A program made the position numbers and the translations under genes. DNA of 64,000 bases. Origin: Macrophomina tecta (Eukaryota; Ascomycota; Dothideomycetes; Botryosphaeriales; Botryosphaeriaceae). Location of the stretch: NCBI GenBank assembly GCA_024180945.1, contig JAKSGN010000041.1, positions 744,001 through 808,000 of the forward strand, read 5' to 3'. Below the pieces are notes generated by a model. It saw nothing but the letters and a program-made list of their open reading frames with translations, was not told the origin of the DNA and searched no databases. Shown here in pieces: positions 11,762-43,375 of this stretch. Position 1 is the stretch's first letter; every line of letters starts with the position of its first letter.

Positions 11762-11888
11762 AGCTGAATGGCGCAGCGGAAGCGGTAAGCAGTTCCCAAT
11801 CCGACAAGCAGTTGAATAACTCACTAACAATTAATACAGCGCCGGGCTCATAACCCGGAGGACAGTGGATCGAAACCACTTTCAGCTA
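11762..11888 (+). tRNA. Initiator tRNA-Met (CAT) interrupted by a 55-nt GT-AG intron in the D-arm
   Basis: Removing 11785-11839 leaves a 72-nt perfect cloverleaf. Acceptor 5' AGCTGAA (11762-11768) pairs fully with TTCAGCT (11881-11887); the D stem GCGC (11771-11774) pairs with GCG+C across the junction; anticodon stem CCGGG/CCCGG flanks loop CTCATAA with anticodon CAT at 11849-11851; T arm AGTGG-ATCGAAA-CCACT; discriminator A at 11888. Eukaryotic initiator hallmarks are present: A1:U72, three consecutive G:C pairs next to the anticodon loop (GGG/CCC), and A54 in the AUCGAAA T loop instead of TTCG. A box (11769-11782) and B box GGATCGAAACC (11867-11877) are intact, and a T-run terminator follows at 11891-11898. 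The intervening sequence starts GTAAGC, has ACTAAC at 11823-11828 and ends ACAG, as in the mRNA introns of this window. It lies between nucleotides 24 and 25, not at the canonical 37/38 site. Confidence 0.92.
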
Positions 11889-13494
11889 TGAAAGTTATTT
11901 TTTTGCATTTTTTTTCCTTTTCGGCACTGTGCGTTCGATTCGAGATCCGCGCACATCGCTTGTCACTTCTTTTTTTTTTTTCCTTTTCGTCGACATTCTT
12001 CACCCGCAAGAGAACCATACCCCTTAAAACAGGGTCAAAATGGACATATATCAACACCAAGCATTGTTTCCTCAGTGCTGCAATACCAAAAGGCGTGGCA
12101 GACCTATCTCAGTTCGAACGCTTCCATCTTTCTCGTAGAAGCAGCTCATTTCTAAATAAAGCAACCGGCGCGAGAACGAGTAAACGTCACAGACGCAGGA
12201 TTTCTCGCAGCGCGCGCGAAACGGCTGACATCATTGCGCAGATCCGCATGGCGCCTTCAACAAATTCCTTTGCACGGCCTCTTTCACTCACCCCATAACT
12301 CGCGTACCAAGAGCTAGGCGGCAGCGATAAGACCGCAGACAAATCTTAATTACGAAGAAATGAGATATACACGCAGCCGAGGTCCATAGAAGGTTCCTGC
12401 GAATTAAGGCCGAGAGGGCCGGCGTTTGTTTTTAACGCCGAGGTCGTGTTGATGGTTGTACACGAAGGCAATTGGCGGTCACGCAGGAGAGCCATGATGT
12501 TGCGTACGAGAAGTGAGAGACAGGATGTGCTGGTAAGAACGGCCGGCTTTAGAGTGAATCGTTAAAGGACGTGTGCCCCAGTAGGGCTCGTCCTATTGGT
12601 GTGTGATCGAGCAGCGGAGAATCTAAAGACCACATCGGTCGACAAGGCTTCAACAGGCCGGGCACTTGCACGATCGTCAGCACGAACGCATGGCGTCAAA
12701 AGAAATGGGGAGCGAAAAGCCACGTCGAGATAACTGCTCCAACTATCCTGGTCAGAGCAAGAGGCTGCATTACTAGCGAGTCAATCTCGTAATAGGAGTG
12801 GCACATCACGCAGAGAACACCGAGAGCATATCATTCAAGGTGCCTTTCCATAAGTTTTTATTTTCACAGTGTGTGGTAGCTGATTTGCATCTATGCGGCG
12901 GTCGATTAGTGCATGAATGCGCCTTAATCCGTGCAAGGGCGTACCGAAAAGCTTTCATCCCGTTTTTCAAGACCACAACCCAAATCCATCTGTCAAACCC
13001 GGCTGCCAGCAAGCCCAAGACAAGCGGCGCCAGGGGTTGTACATGGGAATGAGCGCAGAGCAGAAGAACCGGAAGAAGCGTTGGCCATACCCAGGCCAGA
13101 AAAGCCACCATACATAATCACACCCAACAAAAGCCAAAGTTGGGGGAAAAGAATAAAGAACCAGAGACGAACCCGCAACCCTCGCAGGCGATCACCACCG
13201 CCTCTCTCCTCCCAAAATCGCTGATTGAACTGCCCATTCTAAGTCATTTCGTGTTTTCGCAGTTCGTACGCTCGCTCTCTGGCGTTGTGTGAATAACCGG
13301 AGAAATTCCTCTCAAGCAGATAGCCAGCAAGCAATAATAAGCAGAGAATACGCCCAGTTATCCCACCCAAGGAAATACAAGCACTAATACCATCATTGGC
13401 AAATGGCCGATGTTGGTGAGCGACGGAAAGCACCATGTAAACGCCCGGCCCCCGGTCCAGAATTGTTCCTCTGCTCCTTGAGTTTAGATGCATG

Positions 13495-40284: not shown

Positions 40285-43200
40285 ATGGCGACCTTCCTGG
40301 ACAACGCGTACAGCTTGGTCCATCAGGACAATGCTGCCGACCAGCCCACTCTGCAGGAGCTTAAGACCCAGCTCGAGAAGGGCACGGACGAGACCAAGAT
40401 CGAGACGATGAAGAAGATCCTGACAATCATGCTGAATGGCGACCCCATGCCCGGCCTTCTCATGCACATCATCCGATTCGTCATGCCATCTAAGAGCAAG
40501 CCGCTCAAGAAGCTCCTGTACCTTTACTACGAGATATGCCCCAAGCACGACGCCAATGGCAAGCTCAAGCAGGAATGGATTCTGGTCTGGTACGTATCCT
40601 ACTGGCACCAGCTGCATTGGCCTGTTCCTGATGTGTAACAGCAACGGCATGCGCTTCGACTTGCAACATCCCAACGAATACATCCGGGGCAACACACTCC
40701 GTTTCGTGTGCAAGCTCCGCGACGCCGAGCTTGTCGAGCCCCTGCTCCAACCAGCTAGACAATGCCTTGAGCACCGCCATGCATATGTCCGCAAGAACGC
40801 TGTTTTCGCCATCGCCTCGATATATCAGCATCTGGAAGCTCTCATCCCCGATGCACCCGAGCTTCTCCTGAACTTCTTGGAGGAGGAGAGCGATCACACT
40901 TGCAAGCGGAACGCCTTTGCTGCCTTGGCTTCTATTAGCCACGACAAAGCATTGGAATACTTGAGCGGCGTGTTTGATGGTATTCCGAACGCAGATGAGC
41001 TTCTGCAGCTGGCGGAGCTTGAGTTCATCCGCAGGGATGCCGTCGCCAATCCTCAGAATAAGGTCAGAATGCTGCGGAGGAAATGATTATGCTTTCTTTG
41101 GTTTACTGTGAGCTAACATTGCGGTAGGCTCGCTACCTGCGTCTGATCTTCGACCTTCTCGAGGCAAACACGTCAACCGTTGTCTACGAAGCTGCGTCTT
41201 CGCTAACTGCACTTACCAACAACCCCGTTGCGGTCAAGGCAGCTGCCTCCAAATTCATTGAGCTCAGCATCAAGGAACCGGATAACAACGTGAAACTCAT
41301 TGTGCTAGAGAAAGTGGATCAGTTGAGACAAAAGAATGAGGGCATCTTGGACGACCTTGTCATGGAAATCCTCCGGGTCTTGTCCAGCACAGATCTTGAT
41401 GTGCGCAAGAAGGCGCTGGAACTCGCTATGGAAATGGTTTCCAGCAAGAACGTGGCAGAGGTTGTTATGCTCCTCAAGAAGGAACTATCGAAGACCGTTG
41501 ATGAGCAGTACGAAAAGGTATGCCTGGATTGGCAATGGTGCAAGGTTCAAGAGCTAATCGTTTACAGAATGCCGAATACCGTTCCTTGCTCATTCACTCG
41601 ATACACCAATGCGCGATCAAATTCTCTGAGGTAGCGGCAAGCGTCGTTGATTCTCTCATGGAATTCATCGCCGATTTCAACAATGCCTCCGCCGTGGACG
41701 TTATTTCTTTTGTGAAGGAAGTGGTGGAGAAGTTCCCAGACCTTAGGCCTTCCATTGTGGAGCGGCTAGTATCAACCTTGAGCGAGGTTCGTGCCGGCAA
41801 GGTCTACCGCGGAGCCCTGTGGATTGTGGGAGAGTACTCGCTGGAGCCCAATGATATCCGGGAAGCTTGGAAGCGCATCCGTGCCAGTCTTGGAGAAATC
41901 CCCATATTGGCTTCAGAGCAGAGGCTGCTCGAGGAGGTGCCAGATGGCCAGCCGGATCCCAAAGATCAGATTAACGGTCACGCAAAGTCTGCCCCTACAG
42001 GATCCAGGAAAGTTCTTGCGGATGGCACATATGCCACAGAGAGCGCTCTGACGAGCCAAGCTGCCGTCAAGGCAAAACTGGAGGCTGTCAAGGCAGCTCA
42101 AAAGCCCCCGCTCCGCCAGCTCATCCTGGACGGAGATTACTACCTGGCTACGGTATTATCTTCCACTCTGACCAAGCTCGTCATGCGTCACTCCGAAATC
42201 TCTCAGGACACTGCCCGCACCAACGCGTTGAAGGCTGAGGCTATGCTTATCATGATTTCCATCATCCGTGTCGGACAGTCACAGTTCGTCAAGACTCCCA
42301 TTGACGAGGATTCAATCGATCGTATCATGTCCTGCGTTCGCGCTCTCGCCGAGTTCCAGCAAAAGAAGGAGCTTGAGACCGTTTTCTTGGAGGATACCAG
42401 GAAAGCATTCCGCACAATGGTCCAGTACGAGGAGAAGAAGCGTGCTGCTAAGGAAGCGTCAGAGAAGATGAAGTCAGCGGTCCAGGTGGACGATGTAATC
42501 CCTATCAGGCAACTCGCGAAGAAGAACACTGTGGACGGCGGCGACGAGATGGAGCTTGATTTGGAAAGGGCCACTGGAGGCGATCACACCACTGAGGATC
42601 TCTCTTCGAAACTGAGCAGAGTTGTTCAGCTCACTGGTTTCTCCGATCAGGTCTACGCCGAAGCATACGTCAAGGTGCACCAGTTTGACATTGTCCTAGA
42701 CGTACTTCTTGTCAACCAGACAACAGATACCCTGCAGAATCTCTCGGTCGAATTTGCTACTCTGGGAGACCTGAAGGTCGTTGAACGGCCCACTACCCAG
42801 AACCTCGGACCTCATGACTTCTTGAACGTGCAGGCAACGATCAAAGTGTCATCTACCGACACTGGCGTGATCTTTGGCAACGTTGTCTATGATGGTGCGA
42901 GCTCCACCGACTCGAATGTCATTATTCTCAACGATGTGCACGTCGATATCATGGACTATATCCAGCCGGCACACTGCTCTGAGACGCAGTTCAGGACCAT
43001 GTGGACTGAGTTTGAATGGGAGAACAAGGTCAATATCAACTCCAAGGCAAAGACACTGCGCGATTTCCTTAAGCAGCTGATGGCGGCCACCAATATGAGC
43101 TGCCTTACCCCTGAGGCGTCGATGAAGGGAGATTGCCAGTTCTTGAGTGCCAACCTGTACGCTCGGAGCGTTTTCGGTATGTTACACTACCCAACTTTCA

Positions 43201-43375
43201 AGCTTACCTCAAACTAACGGTCTCTGCAGGTGAGGACGCTTTGGCCAACCTGAGCATCGAGAAGGAGGGAGACGACGGCCCCGTCACTGGATTCGTGAGG
43301 ATTCGCAGTCGCTCGCAGGGTCTGGCGCTTGCGCTTGGCTCCCTCAAGGGCATCAACAAGGCTGGCGAGTCGTAG
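40285..43375 (+). CDS. SEC26: Coatomer subunit beta (beta-COP)
   Basis: Five exons: 40285-40589, 40642-41062, 41128-41517, 41568-43176 and 43230-43375; 956 residues, introns 52, 65, 50 and 53 nt. It begins [20 protein letters not shown]. The adaptin-like HEAT N-terminal half includes [40 protein letters not shown] and [20 protein letters not shown]. The C-terminal appendage includes [40 protein letters not shown] and [20 protein letters not shown]. Length and order match beta-COP throughout. It is a core subunit of the COPI coat for Golgi-to-ER and intra-Golgi transport and should be essential. Confidence 0.97.

Follow-up and report, generated by a model that had tools for sequence, protein, structure and literature searches.

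Spliceosomal-type introns outside position 37/38 in nuclear tRNA genes of Macrophomina tecta, including all initiator genes found

A split initiator tRNA-Met gene and its relatives in the assembly

The window, by which we mean the whole 64,000-nt stretch of DNA analysed here, carries on its plus strand an initiator tRNA-Met gene (positions 11762-11888) in which a 23-nt first exon and a 49-nt second exon are separated by an insert of 55 nt (Table 1). The insert falls between nucleotides 24 and 25, within the 3' strand of the D stem, and once it is removed the exons join into a 72-nt initiator tRNA with an A1:U72 pair, a GGG/CCC anticodon stem, a CAU anticodon, an AUCGAAA T loop and paired stems. 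The initial annotation of this locus had proposed exactly this deletion, which holds to the base, and the exon coordinates place the break between nucleotides 24 and 25, as it had claimed. The A box, B box and terminator that it had described as intact, and the GTAAGC start, the ACTAAC with its branch A 12 nt from the end and the ACAG end that it had read in the insert, were likewise found in place. A simple composition model gives a chance of about 3e-6 that start, branch and end signals would be so placed in this insert. ARAGORN without its intron option reports zero tRNAs in the whole window, and the Rfam tRNA model scores 40.1 bits at the locus but takes a stretch of the intron for the tRNA's 5' half; Rfam matches other than tRNA are absent from the locus. 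Elsewhere in the window, two C/D-box snoRNAs (Rfam Afu_455 and Afu_294, at 293-386 and 1212-1294) lie upstream of a sorting-nexin-like gene with PXA, RGS, PX and Nexin_C domains. Both snoRNA families are named after Aspergillus fumigatus and, together with C-to-T-like changes in repeat copies of the genome, point to a filamentous ascomycete.

Table 1. Features of the split initiator tRNA-Met gene and the mRNA introns of the window used as controls
Feature	Position in window	Strand	Remark or basis
Initiator tRNA-Met exon 1 (nucleotides 1-24, Sprinzl numbering)	11762..11784	+	Acceptor and D stems completed by exon 2
A box (TGGCGCAGCGG), internal Pol III promoter, unbroken	11769..11779	+	Matches the A-box consensus
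Spliceosomal-type intron, 55 nt, between nucleotides 24/25	11785..11839	+	Site identical in the 3 other initiator genes found
5' splice site GTAAGC	11785..11790	+	GTAAG in 4/4 initiator introns
Branch-site sequence ACTAAC, putative branch A 11827, 12 nt from intron end	11823..11828	+	ACTAAC in 3/4 and ACTGAC in 1/4 initiator introns, all at 12 nt
3' splice site ACAG	11836..11839	+	Sequence
Initiator tRNA-Met exon 2 (nucleotides 25-73), CAU anticodon	11840..11888	+	Sequence and stem pairing
B box (GGATCGAAACC)	11867..11877	+	Matches the B-box consensus
T7 run, probable Pol III terminator	11898..11904	+	T4+ run <=75 nt downstream in 48/48 distinct tRNA calls of the nuclear loci read
Coatomer-beta mRNA intron, GTACGT...CCTGAT, 10 nt to end, CAG	40590..40641	+	Control; restored reading frame
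Coatomer-beta mRNA intron, GTCAGA...GCTAAC, 11 nt to end, TAG	41063..41127	+	Control; restored reading frame
Coatomer-beta mRNA intron, GTATGC...GCTAAT, 10 nt to end, CAG	41518..41567	+	Control; by eye between two coding blocks, outside the 15 candidates
Coatomer-beta mRNA intron, GTATGT...ACTAAC, 12 nt to end, CAG	43177..43229	+	Control; homology-confirmed

Does the fungus have an intact initiator gene elsewhere? The initial annotation had named several uninterrupted copies, if no spliced transcript came from this locus, as an observation that would speak for a pseudogene, and a search of the 54.1-Mb assembly (37 contigs) instead brought out four genes, all split at the same site. The 251-nt window locus, used as a query, has three relatives in the assembly; the exact anticodon-arm 13-mer GGGCTCATAACCC occurs at four places genome-wide (reversed control 0), a 21-mer of the anticodon arm, allowing at most 3 mismatches, again at these four (reversed control 1), and the joined 72-nt query matches at those places only. 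The four loci, on contigs C35 (the window), C18, C6 and C37, were read, and each is split at 24/25. The break is visible in the matches of the joined query: at all four loci the 3' match starts from query position 23, and for three of them the listing has a second match, on the 5' side, that stops at 23. A 16-mer from the 5' half, at 0 mismatches, occurs at six places, and the two beyond the initiator genes are not tRNAs. An uninterrupted initiator gene was found in the assembly neither with the 13-mer nor with the 21-mer at up to 3 mismatches nor with the joined 72-nt query; an intact gene could sit in unassembled sequence or differ by more than 3 changes in the 21-mer. Because every initiator gene found is split by an mRNA-like intron, at a site that the tRNA splicing endonuclease is not known to cut, the fungus probably needs its mRNA-splicing machinery to make initiator tRNA.

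Interrupted Trp, Phe and Arg(UCU) genes

A tRNA family search listed 62 matches from 63 scored of 1323 candidates, so that it is not a census, and the nuclear matches, plus the six places from the 5'-half pattern, were read with an intron-tolerant ARAGORN. The interrupted genes come to ten in four families (4 initiator, 3 Trp, 2 Phe and 1 Arg(UCU)), which widens what had been an observation on one gene. An approximate Asp tRNA query had no match and carries no weight. All three tRNA-Trp genes found carry a 24/25 intron (57, 53 and 68 nt) in addition to an intron at 37/38, and none of the three is intact at 24/25. They also all keep an A31.C39 mismatch (in our own numbering) at the base of the anticodon loop. 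The insertion site AGCG|CG is common to the initiator and Trp genes, and in both families the A and B boxes are intact. Contig G000:C17 (125,670 bp), which holds a dense array of mitochondrial-looking tRNA genes, is probably the mitochondrial genome.

The tRNA-Phe genes are only partly affected: two of the five found are interrupted at 30/31 (by introns of 57 and 58 nt) in addition to carrying the 37/38 intron, and the other three present the empty site CCAG|A, one of them judged from match coordinates only. Four of the five Phe genes were read downstream, and three are followed after about 17-19 nt, before the T run, by a short inverted repeat (e.g. CCAGTCGTAGGCTGG), the fourth having a different small inverted repeat at about 30 nt.

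A single tRNA-Arg(UCU) gene was found (G000:C2:1074400-1076200, minus strand), with exon 1 GCCCTGCTAGC and a 54-nt intron at 11/12; the other four matches of the Arg(UCU) query are intact Lys(CTT) genes. Its exon 1 depends on three G.U pairs. The intron cuts the A box, and the gene may therefore use another promoter, for which an AT-rich stretch with TATATAA upstream of exon 1 is a possible replacement.

Splice signals and intron drift

The ten tRNA introns are 53-68 nt long and every one starts with GT and ends with YAG. Six have GTAAG at the 5' site, the others GTAGG, GTCAG, GTTCG and GTATG, and nine have a CTRAY branch site, the exception being CTAAA in Phe_C2, an intron whose signals (GTTCGT, ACTAAA) are weak. 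From the branch A to the intron end there are 12 nt in seven introns, 11 in two and 10 in one. The composition-based chance of GTNNG, YAG and CTRA at 11-12 nt occurring together is 1.6e-6 to 7.8e-6 per intron, a figure that applies to nine introns because the branch of Trp_C7b, at 10 nt, is outside the 11-12 spacing. On the sequence features tested, the inserts would belong among spliceosomal introns.

How do they compare with the mRNA introns around the window gene? A scan based on coding potential gave 15 GT...CTRAY...YAG candidates between coding blocks of the window and none in two reversed controls, the codon table having been trained on the same window and a stricter cut-off leaving 1 candidate. 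Four introns of the coatomer-beta gene served as controls (Table 1). Three of them are among the 15 candidates, and one of the four is confirmed by homology: once it is taken out, the match to solved coatomer beta reaches residue 596 instead of 558 and scores 567 instead of 516 bits. By their signals, the tRNA introns look like the four coatomer-beta introns, in which the branch lies 10-12 nt from the end, and to that extent the statement of the initial annotation that the insert is like neighbouring mRNA introns stands. It does not extend to the 15 candidates as a whole, whose branch-to-end distances range more widely, from 9 to 22 nt, and of which one begins GTAAGT, so that the tRNA introns, with 5' sites apparently stronger than most of these, resemble the better mRNA introns and not the average one.

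The exons of the four initiator copies are 86-100% identical. Stem pairs 6-67 and 7-66 of the acceptor and 49-65 and 50-64 of the T stem differ between copies on both sides, with 0 broken among the pairs checked, and the D-stem letters are identical in all four. After joining, A1:U72, GGG/CCC, A54 and a cloverleaf complete by stem pairing are found in every copy; for joined C37, the minimum-energy prediction is a fold other than the cloverleaf. The introns (55, 58, 56 and 55 nt) share 60-73% pairwise identity, compared with means of 58-60% and maxima of 66-70% in shuffled controls, three of the six real pairs being at or above the best shuffle. Common to the four are a GTAAG start, an ACTAAC or ACTGAC whose branch A lies precisely 12 nt before the intron end, and a final YAG. 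When the ten introns were trimmed by no more than 6 nt at the start and 3 nt at the end, 8 of 45 pairs were more alike than 95% of shuffles; when the splice sites and the branch region were removed, 3 of 45 passed at the 5% level of the shuffles and 0 at the 1% level. Two of these three are initiator pairs (C35-C6 and C35-C18) and, if real, would be a faint trace of common descent. Selection has preserved the tRNA and the splice signals and little besides.

Removal, origin and distribution of the introns

The textbook view is that introns in nuclear tRNA genes belong to the tRNA splicing endonuclease and sit at position 37/38. The extra introns described here are at 24/25, 30/31 and 11/12, which rules out the canonical class, and at 53-68 nt they are too short for self-splicing group I or II introns, neither of which was matched by Rfam at the window locus. 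What, then, removes them? We consider it highly probable that the interrupted genes are functional Pol III tRNA genes whose extra introns are removed by the spliceosome. RNA polymerase III would transcribe the window gene from its internal A and B boxes and stop at the T run, giving a precursor whose D arm holds a presumptive spliceosomal (U2-type) intron. GTAAG, CTRAY and YAG would be read by the spliceosome, which would join nucleotides 24 and 25, and the joined tRNA could then fold and receive its normal end processing. Trp and Phe precursors with an extra intron would depend on two splicing systems: the intron in the D arm or anticodon stem would fall to the spliceosome, the one at 37/38 to the tRNA endonuclease and ligase. 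The presence of a U6 gene is in keeping with this reading. Against it, spliceosomal substrates are normally Pol II transcripts, and U6 snRNA, a product of Pol III that has spliceosomal introns in some fungi, is intron-free in the one gene that we found; the weak signals of Phe_C2, the A31.C39 mismatch of the Trp genes, the split A box and G.U pairs of the Arg(UCU) gene and the C37 fold count on the same side.

Spliceosomal access would be explained without a Pol III route if the tRNA exons lay within longer Pol II transcripts, the introns being spliced as in mRNA and the tRNA released by RNase P and RNase Z. The split A box of the Arg(UCU) gene and the TATATAA stretch upstream of it would fit such transcripts, whereas the initiator and Trp genes retain both boxes and a nearby T run, as other tRNA genes read here keep T runs. 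A run of at least four T occurs within 75 nt downstream of all ten interrupted genes (the first one at +47 in initiator C37) and after all 48 distinct tRNA calls in the nuclear loci read, one of which is the interrupted Phe_C29. Transcription by Pol II is in our judgement unlikely, although it is the least improbable of the alternatives considered here. Could the interrupted genes instead be dead copies, with the working genes in unassembled sequence? Gaps in the assembly are possible, and a review on introns in tRNA genes, in the part of its text available, takes eukaryotic copies with a short D-arm or T-arm insertion to be pseudogenes where just one among many synonymous genes has it (PMC4090602). 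However, all four initiator and all three Trp genes found are interrupted with none found intact, working genes of more than one tRNA family would need to be absent at the same time, and the stems have been kept by changes on both sides while the introns drifted, where decay of dead copies would spare neither the stems nor the splice signals. We consider dead copies very unlikely, and at the window locus the unbroken pairs among those checked, the four both-side changes and the failure to find an intact copy speak against a disrupted pseudogene. The preference of the initial annotation for a functional gene with a spliceosomal intron over a dead copy is thus strengthened by the both-side stem differences and by the Trp, Phe and Arg(UCU) cases, with removal of the intron remaining the presumed step.

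It is also conceivable that the introns are real and that the tRNA splicing endonuclease cuts at ectopic sites, as proposed for the red alga Cyanidioschyzon merolae, with GT...CTRAY...AG an accident. The fungus retains 37/38 introns and hence possesses the endonuclease, and Phe_C29 could form a 4/4 central helix, although 18% of shuffles score as well in total. Ectopic tRNA introns outside 37/38 have been described in nucleomorphs and C. merolae, according to the portions available of two articles (PMC4090602, PMC3978253). Against this, a simple pair count finds a full bulge-helix-bulge in none of the ten precursors, with 18-85% of shuffles scoring at least equally, the four initiator precursors show no unusual or shared fold (z -0.41 to -0.96 vs shuffles), and GT, YAG and CTRA are present in all ten introns with a branch distance of 10-12 nt. 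Ectopic cutting by the endonuclease is therefore the least probable of the explanations weighed here. Like canonical 37/38 introns, the spliceosomal-type introns lie in nuclear tRNA genes and have to be removed to make the tRNA, and both kinds coexist in Trp and Phe genes; unlike them, they occupy 11/12, 24/25 and 30/31, carry GT-branch-AG signals and form no full bulge-helix-bulge.

Insertion of spliceosomal introns at three sites, 11/12, 24/25 and 30/31, probably gave rise to the present introns, which have drifted since. That the initiator and Trp genes have the site AGCG|CG in common suggests that the introns entered by reverse splicing into the tRNA itself, with reverse transcription and gene conversion as later steps. 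Introner-like elements of fungi are new spliceosomal introns gained at many genome sites. Unlike these, the tRNA introns form no sequence family, being mutually dissimilar outside their signals, and queries with the C35 initiator, C7a Trp and C29 Phe introns hit no further copies, which speaks against an introner-like element as the source. mRNA-type introns in structured non-coding RNA genes are familiar from U6 snRNA and from 18S rDNA of fungi; spliceosomal introns in nuclear 18S rDNA of fungi were reportedly described by Rogers et al. in 1993. Unlike in those cases, the host here is a tRNA, several families are involved and every initiator copy found is affected. We incline, without pressing the point, to the wider hypothesis that spliceosomal introns invaded several nuclear tRNA families at preferred sites, reached fixation in all initiator and Trp genes and are spliced out of Pol III precursors, placing translation initiation under the spliceosome in a fungal lineage and coupling tRNA supply, mRNA splicing and start-codon use.

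The known ectopic tRNA introns offer the closest comparison. Those of the Guillardia theta nucleomorph and C. merolae are also outside 37/38 and also occur two to a gene, but as far as the accessible parts of the two articles go (PMC4090602, PMC3978253), the Guillardia insertions are 3-24 nt long and C. merolae splicing uses a bulge-helix-bulge, compared with 53-68 nt and spliceosomal signals here. In the review, 'spliceosom' occurs nowhere, and the eukaryotic ectopic introns named in the accessible part are those of nucleomorphs and C. merolae (PMC4090602). An initiator tRNA gene is interrupted in bacteria too, where, in the excerpt available, self-splicing group I introns lie in the anticodon loop of tRNA-fMet (PMC8450103); group I introns run to 250-500 nt in the accessible portion of another article (PMC10964413), far above the 53-68 nt of the introns described here. 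The initial annotation knew of no established description, and we recognised none of spliceosomal introns in nuclear tRNA genes among the titles and abstract starts listed by full-text searches of 5.39 million open papers, with subscription papers mostly outside them.

In this fungus the initiator and Trp tRNAs appear to depend on the mRNA-splicing machinery, as do the single Arg(UCU) gene found and some of the Phe genes. This makes testable the action of the spliceosome on short Pol III transcripts, the entry of introns into structured RNA genes and a role of splicing in setting the rate of translation initiation. The case also illustrates how a genome of this kind might come to be listed without an initiator tRNA. 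Of 173 eukaryotic genomes surveyed with tRNAscan-SE 2.0, a set that excluded incomplete fungal ones, six were without a predicted CAT subtype, and the part of the text available gives a mislabelled initiator for all six (PMC8450103), so that the split-initiator architecture is not general.

A pattern for the 24/25 class of intron in a GGTAGMG D arm, GGTAGMGGTRWG, matches 105 places in the genome, compared with 115 in the reversed control. Among the 100 places listed, two are Trp genes, the third Trp gene (GTAGGG) escaping the pattern, and of the other 98, 80 were read and by eye none was a tRNA. In viral contigs two patterns had no match, and a search of prokaryote contigs gave at least 120 stretches, which we take as chance. 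Twenty-four of the 80 stretches belong to one repeat, carrying GGTAGCGGTAAG and present in many copies, and have one 32-nt sequence in common. Several copies of this repeat have many C-to-T-like changes, which suggests repeat-induced point mutation, and some are paired 7.6 kb apart, like long terminal repeats (for example G000:C13:94865 with 102483, and C32:144435 with 152052).
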